NCBI GenBank assembly: GCA_020054675.1
Contig: JAIHAL010000005.1
Coordinates: 62,001 to 126,000, forward strand
Direction: 5' to 3'
Source: Oscillospiraceae bacterium
Lineage (GTDB): Bacteria > Bacillota > Clostridia > Oscillospirales > Ruminococcaceae
DNA: 64,000 bases
Of the stretch, positions 17,324 through 62,205 are shown piece by piece. Made by a program: the position numbers and the translations under genes. How positions within the stretch are numbered: the first letter of the stretch is position 1; every line of letters begins with the position of its first letter. The notes under the pieces were generated by a model. The model was not told where the DNA came from. It was given only the letters and a program-made list of their open reading frames with translations, and ran no database searches.

Positions 17324-18523
17324 ATGGCAAAAATGAACGAAAATTTTCTCAATTTAAAGGAAAGCTATCTTTTTGCGGAGGTTGCAAAAAGAGTTAAGGA
17401 ATTTTCCGCACAAAATCCGGACAAAAAAATAATCCGCCTTGGAATAGGCGACGTCACACTGCCTCTTGTTCCTGTTGTTGTAGATGCCATGAAAAAGGGC
17501 GCAGATGAACTTGGCGTAAAGGAAACCTTTAAAGGCTATCCCGAATACGAGGGATATGCTTTCCTGCACAAGGCTATTGCGGATTATTACAAAAGCTTTG
17601 GCGTTGAAATCGGAACTGATGAAATCTTCGTAAGCGACGGCGCAAAAAGCGATGTAGGCAATATAGTCGATGTTTTCGGCATTGACAATACGGTACTTGT
17701 TACGGATCCTGTTTACCCCGTTTATGTGGATACAAACATAATGAGCGGCAGAAAAATAATTTATGCCGATTCCAACGAAGAAAACGGCTTTGCCGCAATG
17801 CCGGACAAAAACATCAAGGCCGACATGATTTACCTTTGCTCGCCAAACAATCCGACCGGTTCAGTTTACACAAAGCAGCAGCTTAAAGAATGGGTTGATT
17901 ATGCCCTTGAAAACAAAGCGGTAATTCTTTTTGATGCGGCTTATGAGGCATATGTTTCCGATTCTGAAATTCCGCGAAGCATTTTTGCAATAGAGGGCGC
18001 AAGAAAATGCGCGGTTGAGTTTTGCAGTCTTTCAAAGACCGCAGGCTTTACGGGAACAAGATGCGGATACACGATTATCCCAAATGAGCTTGAGGTTTAC
18101 GATTCAAACGGAAACCCCGTCAGTCTGAAAAAGCTTTGGTACCGCAGGCAGTCATCAAAATTCAATGGAGTTTCCTATCCTGTACAGTGCGCCGCTGCGG
18201 CTGTATTCACTCCTCAAGGCCAGGAGCAAATAAAGCAAAACATAGCTTATTACATGAAAAACGCAAAGCTCATTGCCGAAACTCTGACCGAGCTTGGAAT
18301 AAAATTTACCGGCGGAATAAACAGTCCTTATATCTGGCTCAAATGCCCCAATGGAATGGGTTCGTGGGAATTTTTTGATTACCTCTTAAAGAACATTCAA
18401 GTTGTCGGAACCCCCGGAGAAGGCTTTGGAAAGAACGGCAAAGGATGGTTCAGGCTTACCGCATTCGGCGATTACGAAAATACCGTTACTGCAATGAAAA
18501 GGCTTAAAGAATTGATGAAATAA
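17324..18523 (+). CDS. dapL: LL-diaminopimelate aminotransferase
   Basis: 399 aa. The ATG at 17324 has AGGGAGTG 9 nt upstream; the GTG at 17312 has none. This PLP class I aminotransferase converts tetrahydrodipicolinate to LL-diaminopimelate in one step, bypassing the succinylase and acetylase routes. Visible motifs are RLGIGDVTLPL near the N-terminus, YLCSPNNPTGSVY, and the PLP lysine in CSLSKTAGFTGTRCGY (about residue 240). Adjacent dapF supports the assignment over other class I enzymes. Confidence 0.97.
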   Translation: MAKMNENFLNLKESYLFAEVAKRVKEFSAQNPDKKIIRLGIGDVTLPLVPVVVDAMKKGADELGVKETFKGYPEYEGYAFLHKAIADYYKSFGVEIGTDEIFVSDGAKSDVGNIVDVFGIDNTVLVTDPVYPVYVDTNIMSGRKIIYADSNEENGFAAMPDKNIKADMIYLCSPNNPTGSVYTKQQLKEWVDYALENKAVILFDAAYEAYVSDSEIPRSIFAIEGARKCAVEFCSLSKTAGFTGTRCGYTIIPNELEVYDSNGNPVSLKKLWYRRQSSKFNGVSYPVQCAAAAVFTPQGQEQIKQNIAYYMKNAKLIAETLTELGIKFTGGINSPYIWLKCPNGMGSWEFFDYLLKNIQVVGTPGEGFGKNGKGWFRLTAFGDYENTVTAMKRLKELMK

Positions 18524-18574
18524 AGTAATTATTGGTCATTATAGTGGTTAGTTTTTGTTCTTTTACTTTTTTAT

Positions 18575-18595
18575 AGGGGGGATTCCATCCCCCCT
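18575..18595 (+). terminator. G/C hairpin after dapL
   Basis: A 9-bp perfect stem, AGGGGGGAT with ATCCCCCCT, has a 3-nt loop. The tail CTTGCTTTTTAAAG is T-rich. It lies 52 nt after the dapL stop. Confidence 0.75.
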
Positions 18596-18631
18596 CTTGC
18601 TTTTTAAAGATAATAAATTTTTATAACCCCC

Positions 18632-18667
18632 TGCCTACTTTTCTTCACCAGCGAAGAAAAGTAGGCA
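18632..18667. repeat. 15-bp perfect hairpin in the dapL-scfB spacer
   Basis: TGCCTACTTTTCTTC (18632-18646) pairs perfectly with GAAGAAAAGTAGGCA (18653-18667) around the loop ACCAGC. It is the left part of a repeat-rich, non-coding stretch that continues into the dispersed repeat at 18710. Confidence 0.7.
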
Positions 18668-18709
18668 AAAGACGCCGCCCTGCGGGGATTCGCTTGCGTC
18701 CTGCTCGGC

Positions 18710-18853
18710 GAATTACGGCTTGTTATTGTTGACCTGCTTTTCGCCTTGGTGCTCACCACTCCAATTTTACTACGAAAAGCAGGTCTTTATCTAAATTTGT
18801 CTTAATAACCTTATTAGCGGAAAATCTTTTCTTATTAAGCGAAATAAGGTGCT
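18710..18853. repeat. Dispersed intergenic repeat, copy 1
   Basis: This stretch matches 37091-37232 in the same orientation. The 59-nt core (18727-18785 versus 37108-37166) differs at only about two positions. The core is a hairpin: a 13-bp perfect stem, GACCTGCTTTTCG with CGAAAAGCAGGTC, and a 29-nt loop conserved in both length and sequence. The flanks match more loosely up to a TTCTTATTAAG-type block. No frame looks coding. The element type is unknown: an untranslated structured repeat, possibly a non-autonomous mobile remnant. Confidence 0.8.
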
Positions 18854-19012
18854 TTCCGAGGTTCGTAAGTATTATTCTTTTTCGCCTTTAACTAAGTAAG
18901 ACGTGGCATCTTCAAGGAAAGCAGCCGAGCTTTGTCGTGCAGGGCGCAAGCGATAGCGTGGCGCCCGTTGCCGAAAAGCCGGCGGAATAAGACTCTACTT
19001 TAATAATAAGTA
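18854..19012. other. Non-coding spacer with one GC hairpin
   Basis: No gene is seen. GGGCGC (18942-18947) can pair with GCGCCC (18961-18966) around a 13-nt loop. The neighbouring 18668-18709 and this stretch are richer in GC than most spacers here, and may be further parts of the repeat at 18710. Confidence 0.5.
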
Positions 19013-19031
19013 AAGGGGGCAAAGCCCCCTT
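19013..19031 (-). terminator. Terminator for scfAB
   Basis: An 8-bp stem, AAGGGGGC with GCCCCCTT and a 3-nt loop, lies 30 nt past the scfB stop. The minus-strand tail is T-rich (TTTACTTATTATT). Confidence 0.75.
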
Positions 19032-19060
19032 CAAAATAAAGTAAAATTACAAAAACTAAT

Positions 19061-36974: not shown

Positions 36975-37005
36975 AGGTGGTATTCTCCTTTTAGTAGTTA
37001 GTTTA

Positions 37006-37084
37006 TAGTTGTTAGTCGTTAGTTTTCGTAGCTTTACTTTTCAGGTTTTATCTTAACTTCCCAGCAACTAACGGCTAACAACTA
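37006..37084. repeat. Inverted repeat of TTAG/CTAA units beside the dispersed repeat
   Basis: A 17-nt arm (37006-37022, TAGTTGTTAGTCGTTAG) is complementary to 37068-37084 with one G-T position. The loop (37023-37067) contains CGTAGCTTTACTTTTCAGG. A TTAG-rich run also precedes it. It borders the dispersed repeat on the left. Confidence 0.65.
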
Positions 37085-37090
37085 AATTAC

Positions 37091-37232
37091 GAATTACGGA
37101 CTGTCCTTGTTGACCTGCTTTTCGCCTCGGTGCTCACCACTCCAATTTTACTGCGAAAAGCAGGTCTTTTAATTTGCTTACCTTAACAACTTTACCGACC
37201 GAAAGTCTTTTCTTGTTAAGGCGGGGCGCTTT
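37091..37232. repeat. Dispersed intergenic repeat, copy 2
   Basis: Second copy of the element at 18710. Its hairpin is GACCTGCTTTTCG (37112-37124) with CGAAAAGCAGGTC (37154-37166) and a 29-nt loop. It fills the gap between the GH95 gene start and the SPFH gene stop. The remaining 37233-37268 is a run of CTAATTTCTAACC-like units with no other feature. Confidence 0.8.
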
Positions 37233-37270
37233 TAATTCTAATTTCTAACCTCTAATCTCTAACTTCTATT

Positions 37271-44929: not shown

Positions 44930-45082
44930 GTAGATAGGAAACTATCTCAAATGTTTGTTGCTACTCGATATGCAACTCAAACAAGGTCGAGCTCAAATGT
45001 TTGTCGCACCTCGATGAGCGACTAATAAAAGGTCGAGTTCAAATGTTTGAAGCTCCATTCGAAAGAATGGGGCTTCTTTATT
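44930..45082 (+). ncRNA. cptI: Type III antitoxin RNA (CptI-like), 46-nt pseudoknot repeats
   Basis: Three units begin with TCAAATGTTTG at 44947, 44993 and 45039, exactly 46 nt apart. The first two are complete: each has a stem, GTTGC/GCAAC (44957-44961, 44972-44976) and GTCGC/GCGAC (45003-45007, 45018-45022). The T-A to C-G change preserves pairing. In each, the loop CTCGA (44964-44968; 45010-45014) is complementary to TCGAG downstream (44987-44991; 45033-45037), giving an H-type pseudoknot. The third, partial unit runs into a terminator. By knowledge of type III systems, the RNA units are cut by the toxin and inhibit it. The 5' end is inferred from the promoter. Confidence 0.88.
45049..45079 (+). 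terminator. Terminator between antitoxin RNA and toxin
   Basis: GAAGCTCCATTC (45049-45060) pairs with GAATGGGGCTTC (45065-45076) around GAAA with one G-T pair. A T-rich tail follows. This is the usual position in type III systems: most transcripts stop here and a few read into the toxin gene. Confidence 0.9.
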
Positions 45083-45652: not shown

Positions 45653-47020
45653 TCACTCTTCAAATTTTTTTGAATTTTCAGGGAATTCTTCTTTCCAAAT
45701 CTTTATGTTACACTCCATTTTTTCACAAAACTCATTATAATGAGATCCATTTGGAATAATAAAAGGGATTTTATAACATCCCACTTCTTCTGCATAAAAA
45801 CTTTTAAATGGATTTAATATTAAATTTTCTATTGTTTCATTTTGGTCAGTTCCGTTTTGAACAGGATAAATTATCCCACATTTATTCCCGCCTGTAATAT
45901 AAAGGTATGATAAAAGCTGGTGCATATCGTCATTATTATAATTCCATTTCTTGTATTTTGCATCAAACACATTACGCCGGTCTCCATTTTCAACTTTTTT
46001 AACAAAGTCCGGATACCATTTCCTTTTGTCTTTTGTATATTTTATGCCGGAACTTTTTTGGGGAATAAAATGTTCATAATTATCAAGCAATTTAACTGCT
46101 ATGAAGTTTTCCCATAACCAAGAAATATCTATTAATAACCCAAAACTTTCCTCTTCTTGCTCTTCATAGATATTGTCTCCTTCTTCTTTAAGCAGTCGAA
46201 GACAAATTTGCCTGATTTTTTCATAATCTTGGAACATGGGATGTGTAATTTGATTGTGGCACTTTGGTTTTTGCTGATATTTTATATTCATTTGAAATGA
46301 TGGCGTGGCTTCTTCAATAACATTTTCAATTTCATACATAATACTATGCGATTTGCAATAATTCGACCACAAATCATAATATTTGCCTTTTATAAATTCA
46401 AATGTTTGCCTTATCATGCAAAGAATATCATTGTCATAGCTGTATTCCCTTGTATTATAAGCAGTTTTGCCTATAAAAGGAACATTGCACTTTATATGCC
46501 TTGCCACATCAAAATAGCCCTTAAAATTAAAGTCATTATGCTTGAAAGTCTTATAAACCTTATACAATCCTTCATTATATGCTTCTTGTATTTTTTCACA
46601 AAAAAGAATTACAAGAATCAAATCAAAAATTGATTCGTTTAAGTTTTCAATATTGCAATTATACAAAGTAAAATCGTAATATGTACTAATTAAATACAAT
46701 AAAAAATATTGTTTTTCCGAAACGTCAAATCTGGAATGGATTTCTAACCGAATATCCGGAACTGAAATTACACCGACCCAATTAGTAGTTAATATTTTAT
46801 CGTTCTTACGCCAAAAAATATCTTCATTATTTTTATTTGCTTTAACATCTTCCGGTATTCTAATCAGTTTGTTGACATCAATATTTTGGAATTTTTTCAA
46901 TTTATTCCATTGTTCTTCTGTTATGTCTCCATTATCAGATGATGTTTCATTATCAATTTTATATTCATTGTTGTCTGTCCAAATAATTATATCTGAGTTA
47001 TTCGGCATTATTTTTTCCAT
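45653..47020 (-). CDS. mcrC: McrC-family nuclease subunit of an McrBC-type restriction system
   Basis: 455 aa. McrC supplies the PD-(D/E)XK nuclease and stimulates McrB. The C-terminal half carries WYPDFVKKV, then FDAKYKKWN (Asp...Asp-x-Lys), the expected catalytic pattern. The N-terminal part with GVISVPDIRLEIHSRFDVSE is the McrC-type domain that contacts McrB. It overlaps the end of mcrB by 23 nt on the same strand, so the two are coupled. It lies in an AT-rich, defence-related stretch. Confidence 0.9.
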   Translation of the reverse strand: MEKIMPNNSDIIIWTDNNEYKIDNETSSDNGDITEEQWNKLKKFQNIDVNKLIRIPEDVKANKNNEDIFWRKNDKILTTNWVGVISVPDIRLEIHSRFDVSEKQYFLLYLISTYYDFTLYNCNIENLNESIFDLILVILFCEKIQEAYNEGLYKVYKTFKHNDFNFKGYFDVARHIKCNVPFIGKTAYNTREYSYDNDILCMIRQTFEFIKGKYYDLWSNYCKSHSIMYEIENVIEEATPSFQMNIKYQQKPKCHNQITHPMFQDYEKIRQICLRLLKEEGDNIYEEQEEESFGLLIDISWLWENFIAVKLLDNYEHFIPQKSSGIKYTKDKRKWYPDFVKKVENGDRRNVFDAKYKKWNYNNDDMHQLLSYLYITGGNKCGIIYPVQNGTDQNETIENLILNPFKSFYAEEVGCYKIPFIIPNGSHYNEFCEKMECNIKIWKEEFPENSKKFEE

Positions 47021-48599
47021 CCTGATTTTTTTTATCCTTTATGCCACAAAATCCATTATACATTTCTTTAATATTATCATCACTTCCTCTTTTATTTCTT
47101 GCATATTCATTTAGAATTTGACAAATATGATTATACCAGACCTCTTTTAATGCTTCTGTATAATCCTCAGGCGTGTCCATATATAAATTTATTTTAGCAA
47201 AATAAGCCGGGCCGATATGATAATGCCTTGTAAGATTAAGTTCACTTACTATTGCTTCATTTAAAGCTTTAATTTTTTCGCAATAATCTTTATAATTATC
47301 CCCTAATTTTTGGTCAACGCCCATAGCTTCAAGTACTTTTGCCATGACTTCATCAGCTTTGACCTCATACCATGCAAAACGTCTTCTCATGGCAAAGTCA
47401 AAAATTTCAACGCTTCTGTCAATATTATTCATGGTTCCGATTATATAAACATTGCTTGGAATAAAAAATTTATCTTCTTTTGTATCAATAAAAAAAGTAT
47501 CTTCCGTTGCACAAGAAGAATATTGTGTGGAAATTTTTCCTTTATCCCCTCTATAATCCACATCAATACAGAACATTACTTCACCGAAAACTTTTGAAAT
47601 TTCAGCGCGGTTTATTTCATCAATTATAAACAAAAATTCCGGAAGATTTTCAATTACTTCATTGACAATCTCAATGCTTTTATCCGAATTATTATATTTA
47701 TCTATAGCTTCCTTTAAGCCGGAGTTGGACTCAATTTGTTCTTTCCAAAAATTAATAACTTCTTGCTTTTGACCTTTTAAAAATTTTTCTATATTTTCCT
47801 TGTTAATATTCCTATTTGCTGACATTATTCTTTCAATTACGCCGGCGCTTCTGCAAAAAGATTTAAACACCCCATTTTTAAGTATATATGAAAGTTCTTT
47901 CCCGGAAAGTTCAGGCCTTATTCCGTCAATAAAATCAGTATAATCATATGATGGGTGAAACTGAACCATATCAATTCTTATTTCTTCATTATCTGTAATG
48001 CCAAGCTCTTTAGCTATTTCATTTAATGCCGAATAAGTTTTTCCAGTACCCGGCGCTCCATGAAGAATAAGCTGCTTGTTTGCTTTAAGAAGTTGGACAT
48101 ATTTATTGCTTGAAGAAACATTTTCATTTCCTACATTTATATCTGCAACAGTCTGATCATTTGATGCTTCTTTTAATTCATTTATTAAATTTTCCATTTC
48201 TTCTCTCTTCCACCACTTATCTTTTAATATTTCCTCTATTTTATTAGATACATCTTTAATTGTGCTTTCTTCAGTTAAACCTTGTTCTTGACGAAAATAA
48301 TCTTTATTGCTAGATCTATTTTTACCTCCTTTAAAATATGCATAAGAATTAGCGCTTACTGTATTAGTACTTTTTTCTTCAATTTCTGTACTACTTCTTT
48401 TCTCACTATGATATCTATTTATATATATTTTTAATAAAGTTTCATTAAGCAATAATCCAAATAAAAAATCAATTTTTTTAGCATTCCCCCAAATATTTCT
48501 TTTTTTTTCTATAAAACTGTCTAACCACTTATTTTCTTCAATGTTTTTAAACATTTCTTCAAATTCTTTTAAAGTGGTTTTGTCGGTTACTTTTAACAC
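46998..48599 (-). CDS. mcrB: McrB-like GTPase motor with a variant N-terminal domain
   Basis: 533 aa from a GTG with GGGGGTG 7 nt upstream. The AAA+ GTPase part has Walker A GAPGTGKT (residues 181-188), Walker B FLFIIDEINRAE, and the McrB hallmark GTMNNIDRS, then FAMRRRFAWYEV. In E. coli, McrB with GTP forms a hexamer that moves DNA to McrC. The N-terminal ~150 residues (LKEFEEMFKNIEENKWLDSF, FLFGLLLNETLLKIYINRYH) should recognise the target, but they do not match a DNA-binding domain I know. The same domain is present as a separate gene upstream. Confidence 0.92.
   Translation of the reverse strand: MLKVTDKTTLKEFEEMFKNIEENKWLDSFIEKKRNIWGNAKKIDFLFGLLLNETLLKIYINRYHSEKRSSTEIEEKSTNTVSANSYAYFKGGKNRSSNKDYFRQEQGLTEESTIKDVSNKIEEILKDKWWKREEMENLINELKEASNDQTVADINVGNENVSSSNKYVQLLKANKQLILHGAPGTGKTYSALNEIAKELGITDNEEIRIDMVQFHPSYDYTDFIDGIRPELSGKELSYILKNGVFKSFCRSAGVIERIMSANRNINKENIEKFLKGQKQEVINFWKEQIESNSGLKEAIDKYNNSDKSIEIVNEVIENLPEFLFIIDEINRAEISKVFGEVMFCIDVDYRGDKGKISTQYSSCATEDTFFIDTKEDKFFIPSNVYIIGTMNNIDRSVEIFDFAMRRRFAWYEVKADEVMAKVLEAMGVDQKLGDNYKDYCEKIKALNEAIVSELNLTRHYHIGPAYFAKINLYMDTPEDYTEALKEVWYNHICQILNEYARNKRGSDDNIKEMYNGFCGIKDKKNQDGKNNAE
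48361..48590. repeat. Duplicated segment, copy in mcrB
   Basis: These 230 bp match 48949-49175 (227 bp) at about 95% by hand count, with one 3-nt difference. They encode the same N-terminal domain in both genes. The match drops on either side. Confidence 0.9.
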
Positions 48600-48664
48600 T
48601 ATGACACCCCCATAACACCATTTAACTTCATTGAAATATTATACTTTTTAAAAATAATAATTTA

Positions 48665-48730
48665 AAAAAATAAAAGACTACCATATTTTTTATAATTATA
48701 AAAAATAATTTGGAAAGTCTTTTATTTTTT
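48665..48730. terminator. Long hairpin between the stand-alone domain gene and mcrB
   Basis: A-rich AAATAAAAGACT pairs with AGTCTTTTATTTT, with an inner AT hairpin. The minus-strand tail is T-rich. It lies 16 nt past the stand-alone gene, so mcrBC may be transcribed partly by read-through. Confidence 0.7.
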
Positions 48731-48746
48731 AATATTTCCTCCAATG

Positions 48747-49184
48747 TTAATTATTAGAAATTTTTTTCAAATCTTTTATTAAATCTTCTATTTCCTTTTG
48801 TTTTTCATTTTGGCCTTTTAATATTTCATTTATTTTATTAGACACATCTTTAATTGTGCTGTGTTCATTCAGTCCTTGTTTTTCTTGTGAAAAATCATCT
48901 TTACTGGTTTGTATTTCCATTACATATCCATAAGAATTTCGCTTTACAGTATTAGTACTTTTTTCTTCAATTTCTGTACTACTTCTTTTTTCACTATGAT
49001 ATCTATTTATATATATTTTTAATAAAGTTTCATTAAGCAATAATCCAAATAAAAAATCAAATTTCTTAGCATTTCCCCGCATATTTCTTTTTTCTATAAA
49101 ACTGTCTAACCACTTATTTTCTTCAATGTTTTTAAACATTTCTCCAAATTCTTTTAAAGTAGTCTCATCTGTTACCTTGTACAT
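48747..49184 (-). CDS. Stand-alone copy of the McrB N-terminal domain
   Basis: 145 aa. GGAGGG lies 7 nt before the ATG at 49184. Residues 1-80 are nearly identical to the mcrB N-terminus (KEFGEMFKNIEENKWLDSF, FLFGLLLNETLLKIYINRYH, SEKRSSTEIEEKSTNTV). The C-terminal helical part (STIKDVSNKINEILKG) also matches but more loosely, and the protein stops before any ATPase motif. It is thus a free copy of the presumed target-recognition domain. It could compete with, assist or regulate McrB. I know of no named family for this arrangement. It is in an operon-like order before mcrB but separated by a terminator-like hairpin. Confidence 0.88.
   Translation of the reverse strand: MYKVTDETTLKEFGEMFKNIEENKWLDSFIEKRNMRGNAKKFDFLFGLLLNETLLKIYINRYHSEKRSSTEIEEKSTNTVKRNSYGYVMEIQTSKDDFSQEKQGLNEHSTIKDVSNKINEILKGQNEKQKEIEDLIKDLKKISNN
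48949..49175. repeat. Duplicated segment, stand-alone gene copy
   Basis: The partner of 48361-48590, about 95% identical by hand count. The 3-nt difference removes one Lys codon. Confidence 0.9.
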
Positions 49185-49391
49185 TGCAAAACCCTCCAAT
49201 AAAATTATTTTATAAGTTAAAAAATCGTCAAAATAAATTTTATTTCGTTAAAAGAATAGAATTTATTTTGCCAATTATAAGAATTATTATATACTATTTT
49301 TTCTTATTGTCAACATATTTTGAAAAATAAATTTAAATTTCTATTTATTTTTACAAAATACGCTCTAAAATTTGTGAAAAAATAAAAAACA

Positions 49392-62098: not shown

Positions 62099-62164
62099 CG
62101 TTAATATTTATTCCTTGCTTTAATGAAGGCGGTCTTGTCAGCAGTCGGAAAATAGTGGTTTGTT

Positions 62165-62205
62165 GTTCGTACCCGTATCTTTACTTTTCAAGCTTTTATT
62201 TTAAA
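62165..62205. repeat. Partial match to the repeat at 37025
   Basis: TTCGTA, then TCTTTACTTTTCA, then TTTTAT and TTAAA occur in the same order as at 37025-37060. This suggests a third, worn copy of part of the dispersed element's left side. Confidence 0.45.

Follow-up and report, generated by a model that had tools for sequence, protein, structure and literature searches.

Two intergenic gaps in the 64,000-nt stretch of DNA analysed here (the window) carry nearly the same hairpin, which raises the question of what this hairpin is and how it came to lie in both. A first-pass annotation had described it as a dispersed repeat and had named three options for it, a structured RNA, a protein-binding site or a non-autonomous mobile element. 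BOX, BIME and other composite interspersed repeats have been known for a long time, and for many of them the mover is still an open matter. We consider it probable that the hairpin is the constant part (module E) of a genus-specific, non-coding, non-autonomous composite interspersed repeat, BOX/BIME-like in kind and spread by insertion. The copy number, the mosaic build and the presence or absence of copies between two species all fit a repeat of this kind.

The positions of the two copies, their 13-bp stem (GACCTGCTTTTCG/CGAAAAGCAGGTC) and their 29-nt loop were confirmed, both copies lying on the + strand (Table 1). Their stems are identical, and the only two differences between the cores fall within the loop, in line with the earlier estimate of about two; a longer match between the copies runs to 82% over 131 nt. 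Copy 1 sits between convergent LL-diaminopimelate-aminotransferase-like and radical-SAM-like genes, copy 2 between two - strand genes, alpha-L-fucosidase-like and HflC/prohibitin-like (all names read from translations).

Table 1. Features of the two window copies and of the blocks around them (positions in the window).
Feature	Positions	Strand	Remark
Core hairpin (module E), copy 1	18730..18786	+	stem 18731-18743 with 18773-18785, loop 18744-18772
Core hairpin (module E), copy 2	37111..37167	+	stem 37112-37124 with 37154-37166, loop 37125-37153
Core leader CGAAT(T/A/G)ACGGCT and variable 9-10 nt spacer	18709..18729	+	copy 1
Module F2 of copy 1, second variable hairpin CTTAATAA...TTATTAAG	18801..18839	+	stacked copies
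Module A, long perfect hairpin GCCTACTTTTCTTC...GAAGAAAAGTAGGC	18633..18666	+	copy 1 block
Module B, CCCTGCGGGG	18678..18687	+	copy 1 block
Module I, alternative 3' module, CGAAATAAGGTGCTTTCCGAGG...	18840..18941	+	copy 1 block
Module D in inverse orientation, GGGCGC...GCGCCC hairpin	18942..18966	-	copy 1 block
Terminator-like hairpin just 3' of dapL-like gene, left block edge	18575..18595	+	terminator scan
Terminator-like hairpin of convergent radical-SAM-like gene, right block edge	19011..19033	-	terminator scan
Module F2 of copy 2, CCTTAACAA...TTGTTAAGG	37181..37221	+	both stem sides differ from copy 1
Left TTAG heptamer tract, imperfect, bounding copy 2	36991..37022	+	
Inner heptamer tract, between left border of copy 2 and core	37068..37085	-	
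Right heptamer tract bounding copy 2	37238..37262	-	
Insertion of copy 2, 280 bp without alignable counterpart in the sister genome (59 bp there)	36990..37270	.	sister comparison

The hairpin is not restricted to the window. The annotation had allowed for only two copies within a larger duplicated segment, and the genome-wide count and alignment that it had proposed show otherwise: when the own genome (G000; 2,275,668 bases in 19 contigs, 90% complete) was scanned with a tolerant pattern, the core was located at 48 places, 27 forward and 21 reverse, and the reversed pattern at none. Three further copies lie beyond these 48, one 5'-truncated on contig C3, one truncated in locus L113 and one at a contig end in L115. 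In the second genome of the genus examined (G089, the sister genome) 27 core matches were listed, some of them head to head as inverted pairs. The repeat was called dispersed and non-coding, and this stands, since 49 of 51 core matches lie between open reading frames (ORFs) or at contig ends and the other two fall within a called ORF that itself overlaps the element. We rejected a coding role because the loop lengths of module D differ and the spacer carries 1-nt indels, so that no reading frame is kept; ORFs running through the element are taken as by-products.

Stacking the copies showed that the unit of repetition had been drawn too small: the hairpin is indeed dispersed, but the real unit is a larger mosaic block of which the core is the constant part. 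On the 5' side, and in varying completeness, lie a terminator-like hairpin (T), the long perfect hairpin A, module B, module C (a CGCCGGCAACGG stretch) and an exchangeable hairpin D. On the 3' side follows the variable hairpin F2 and then one of several continuations, either a short G-rich piece with a heptamer tract, or a longer module succeeded by D, C and A in inverse order. Module D comes in several complementary types (arms GGGCGC, GGCAATT, GGGCAC, GGACGC and GGGCAT with their complements) and once as a chimaera with mismatched arms; A, found at 33 places in the own genome, also has several perfectly paired variants and one mismatched variant pair. These sub-sequences combine in varying arrangements, and pieces of the repeat family were found inserted in one another. 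In copy 1, module C and the 5' half of D are absent, an internal deletion relative to other copies, and a single-sequence fold favours a different pairing in the F2 region; in copy 2, a heptamer-bounded insert takes the place of modules A-D.

In 518,574 bases of the own genome we counted 85 heptamer tracts of the form TTAG-NNN, of which 66 consist of exactly five TTAG units. For the strict five-unit form, TTAG-WNR, there are 86 matches in the complete sequence of the own genome (46 + 40) and 51 in G089 (23 + 28). In all it is present in 12 of 247 family genomes and 7 of 126 genera (e.g., G063, G044 and G164), with a reversed control of 0 throughout. TTAG-WNR tracts were also seen near related heptamers such as GCAAGAA. 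Inverted tracts bound a minority of the elements (18 rows representing 12 distinct elements, six being listed from both strands), their arms are degenerate, and the elements so bounded measure about 320-530 nt and contain several unlike hairpins; one of 419 nt folds as a single closed multi-branched structure (z -11.1). A short cassette, in which two inverted tracts surround ~46 nt (most of the 19 listed are 109-111 nt long), also sits inside other modules. Perfect palindromic flanks around whole elements had been suspected from single junctions and were dropped, as mirrored flank runs are 0-2 nt for elements with the core. At five loci of G089 (L059, L067, L070, L071 and L072) only the right half of the core is present, preceded by a heptamer tract and AGTGCCC; this variant looks like a recombinant whose left end is another one.

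The own copies were compared with 526,786 bases of G089. Among the 46 own copies checked, seven had both flanks on a single G089 contig, the other 39 being not judgeable; the core was absent from G089 at five of the seven and present at two, which bears out the suggested spread. At the five sites without the core, G000 holds 612, 625, 822, 412 and 280 bp where G089 holds 37, 28, 46, 3 and 59 bp, respectively, the last pair of values referring to window copy 2. At L113:3371, also among the five, G000 has only a truncated core. In the reverse direction, four of the 27 G089 copies were judgeable, two with and two without the core in G000. With two genomes of the genus compared, the G089 sites lacking the core could also be losses. 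One of the sites lacking the core, L171/L194, is not a clean empty site, as a heptamer tract is present in G089, and the counterpart of copy 1 is a contig break there. The pair L113/L124, one of the two sites with a core in both genomes, was rejected as a shared old copy: its cores stand in opposite orientation and among different modules, so that it is a case of independent insertion or inversion.

We aligned 65 copies from the two species (46 own, 19 from G089), leaving out those truncated in the core. The stem is paired in 842 of 845 cells (99.6%), 18 cells are changed on both sides, and G-U pairs number 0; four stem types occur, GACC, GCTC, GGCC and GCCC. The two-sided changes belong mostly to one G089 type and may go back to a single event. 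Taken over all four helices, none of the 500 shuffles reaches the observed covariation score, number of paired cells or number of cells with two-sided change; no excess is seen in the pairs with two-sided change (8 against a shuffle mean of 8.0) or in the further pair types (23 against 23.3).

In the own genome, mean column identity (46 copies) is 0.998 and 0.997 for the two stem arms and 0.948 for the loop, with lower values around the core (5' flank 0.884, F2 0.866, linker 0.793, spacer 0.620). The claim that the loop is conserved as well as the stem thus holds there, but not across the genus: in G089 the loop scores 0.804, below both the 5' flank (0.883) and the linker (0.850), owing to the presence of two loop types in that genome. 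Within each type the loop is nearly fixed; the G089 result speaks against a universal loop constraint. The loop had also been called unpaired. Its 29 nt are conserved as described, but a small inner 4-bp stem is possible within it (helix 2, 90% of cells paired in the alignment). The exclusively Watson-Crick changes and the co-changing arms suggest that the hairpin is kept as DNA, which might come about through arm-to-arm correction or through recognition of the extruded hairpin.

A structured RNA, cis-regulatory or small, encoded by the core would be consistent with the conserved loop of the own genome, with the two-sided stem changes and with RNA folding that beats shuffles at both window copies (z -2.85 and -3.89). 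We nevertheless regard such an RNA as quite improbable, whether regulatory or housekeeping. The Rfam search of the window returned only a tRNA at gathering score and chance-level matches, nothing credible, at permissive thresholds; G-U pairs are missing from all 845 stem cells; and the covariance search across 247 genomes gave nothing above 32 bits outside the genus. A regulatory role in particular is unlikely, since orientation to the flanking genes is mixed and an Rfam match is lacking: the 41 of 51 core matches with both neighbours identified divide into 14 between convergent, 22 between tandem and 5 between divergent genes, with no fixed orientation.

A further possibility is that the copies are dispersed transcription terminators or mRNA 3'-end protectors, kept for ending or shielding the transcripts of their neighbours. 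When ORFs of 90 aa or more are taken to represent genes, gaps holding the core are enriched between convergent genes (12/36, against 28/230 for gaps without it; odds ratio 3.6, P 0.004). Terminator-like hairpins stand at both edges of the copy 1 block, and at some G089 sites without the core an ordinary hairpin of this type occupies the place where the element sits in G000. The core itself, however, is no intrinsic terminator by the scan, given its 29-nt loop and 0 terminator-like sites at copy 2. Moreover, terminators would not require a conserved loop, and the copies between tandem (22/41) or divergent (5/41) genes, in both orientations, speak against such a role, which we judge unlikely. 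A role in chromosome organisation or replication, in which a protein binds the core hairpin or duplex and selection places the copies, is very improbable. It would draw on the uneven distribution over contigs, with two copies on C12 and C18 (678,700 bases) against 14.3 expected and 14 on C2 against 5.1, and on the tendency of the core to oppose the local GC-skew leading strand (26 vs 12 of 38 scorable copies among the 48, P 0.034 at 10 kb on each side; P 0.041 and 0.038 at two other window sizes). Yet the unevenness is partly expected, because long contigs are those unbroken by repeats, and the strand bias is weak and takes no account of the coupling of gene strand and skew. The sites differ between the sister species, and the mosaic of other modules and the nested insertions have no role in this explanation.

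Among the three options of the annotation, the non-autonomous mobile element is the best supported, by the sites without the core in the sister genome, the independent insertions and the mosaic modules. As for protein binding, the core hairpin may have a role in mobilisation, perhaps as the recognition site for a putative mover.

A chain of swappable hairpin modules (T, A, B, C, exchangeable D, core E, F2 and alternative 3' parts) makes up the block, and inverted arrays of five TTAG heptamers often form its borders. The block would have spread by inserting into intergenic DNA, preferably into gaps between convergent genes, where it could take the place of the native terminator region. At gene ends, insertions may be tolerated on account of the terminator-like modules at the edges of the block, which would account for the positions of the insertions though not for their spread. 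We infer from the stem changes that the core is probably maintained at the DNA level, as a hairpin that can be extruded and is recognised by a trans-acting enzyme.

Searches for such a mover and for its traces were negative within their scope. Target-site duplications, which the annotation had suggested looking for, were not found: the mean best direct repeat, 2.17 for heptamer-bounded elements (18 rows, 12 distinct) and 1.95 for the 19 short cassettes, did not surpass that of mispaired flanks (2.23 and 2.24, respectively). In the own genome there were 0 matches to Y1_Tnp (PF01797, the RAYT-type HUH transposase; control positive in 6 of 14 genomes) and 0 to reverse transcriptase (PF00078; control positive in 3 of 14), both absences being provisional because the assembly is 90% complete. 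Over 518,574 bases, about 23% of the genome, 462 ORFs were compared and no multi-copy transposase-like family was seen; the few repeated pairs consist of two tandem genes in the window and of ORFs that overlap or adjoin elements. Given the negative results for target duplication, Y1 transposase and reverse transcriptase, the repeat should not be classified as a classical MITE, REPIN or retro-element, although its way of working may resemble theirs.

The foot of a REP hairpin adjoins a conserved tetranucleotide. According to excerpts of PMC3116915, the BIME and REP-REPIN elements of enterobacteria and pseudomonads are palindromic and extragenic and show compensatory stem changes, as do the copies described here. 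Together with the weak strand bias, this likeness would speak for a REP/REPIN-type element moved by a RAYT (Y1 HUH) transposase. We find that origin hardly credible, as the Y1/RAYT gene was not detected in the 90% complete own genome. The present repeat differs from BIME and REP-REPIN also in its bounded elements, which contain several unlike hairpins over about 320-530 nt. The likeness to the BOX elements of Streptococcus pneumoniae lies in a limited set of modules, intergenic position, predicted stem-loops and clustering (excerpts of PMC3049150). The present repeat differs from BOX in its sequences and modules and in its TTAG heptamer borders; no tandem boxB-like array was seen in it, and no related IS termini were found. 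Heptanucleotide repeats (TAACTGA in Beggiatoaceae, and those of cyanobacteria) share the 7-nt period, the intergenic position and the phylogenetically scattered occurrence (excerpts of PMC4679880), whereas the tracts described here have a degenerate TTAG-WNR unit, mostly number exactly five units and often form inverted pairs.

Mitochondrial repetitive or double hairpin-forming elements and GC clusters, too, are dispersed, with tandem or merged hairpins, and the excerpted text mentions no flanking duplications for the double-hairpin elements (PMC2800124, PMC4478555). Their loops are variable and their stems conserved, unlike in the present core, whose loop is largely kept too and whose host is bacterial. 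There is also a more speculative variant, which we hold only tentatively: the repeat might consist of nested selfish palindromes, whose modules insert into one another's stems and loops without target duplication, with both arms and the loop kept exact at the DNA level, and which are moved or copied without a Y1 transposase or reverse transcriptase. It would be a bacterial counterpart of the mitochondrial hairpin elements, with TTAG-heptamer borders. The excerpts obtained from the open-licence literature searched held no description of this core-hairpin repeat family. With its near-fixed core stem and loop, exchangeable cassettes, fixed-size heptamer borders and sister sites without the core, the composite repeat offers an unusually clear anatomy, and finding its mover would reveal how palindromes in bacteria can multiply when no transposase is visible.

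As far as tested, module E is confined to the genus. A DNA search of 197 family genomes gave matches in three, two being the genus itself; the third (G092) holds a single 23-nt match inside apparently protein-coding sequence (by sequence reading, not by a formal gene call) and was taken as chance. The covariance search that the annotation had proposed, run on 247 genomes, returned matches in 11, scoring 54.6-90.4 bits inside the genus and none above 32 bits outside it, where nine genomes with single matches of 22-32 bits were judged chance. In the genome_contigs collection, from which the own genome was perhaps left out, the exact core pattern occurs in 12 stretches, every one of which belongs to a single MAG (Oscillospiraceae bacterium isolate bin66). 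Module A was present in one of 391 class genomes, the own one, the sister genome lying outside that draw. A plasmid or phage origin was rejected: window 18520-19060 had no blastn match in 72,556 plasmid or 50,697 phage records, and the one IMG/VR match is host flank. The contig concerned (L228, IMGVR_UViG_3300034759_000167) is 99.6% identical over 252 bases (1-252) to L103:8499-8750 and continues with phage-like ORFs; we rejected a phage-borne copy here, the contig representing the host flank of an apparent prophage attached beside the repeat. As several copies lie at contig ends, the repeat may be one reason why contigs break in the metagenome assemblies studied here.

Some smaller features of the window were also recorded. 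Positions 62133-62196 hold a degenerate heptamer-bounded remnant, 70% like 36986-37049, and its sister site (L135) has half a core flanked by an inverted GTGCCCTTACT repeat. A tandem partial gene duplication lies on the - strand at 46998-49199 (ORFs 46998-48599 and 48747-49199, 71.6% identity over 148 aa), and at 44946-45037 a 46-nt unit stands twice in tandem, its two copies being 80% alike.
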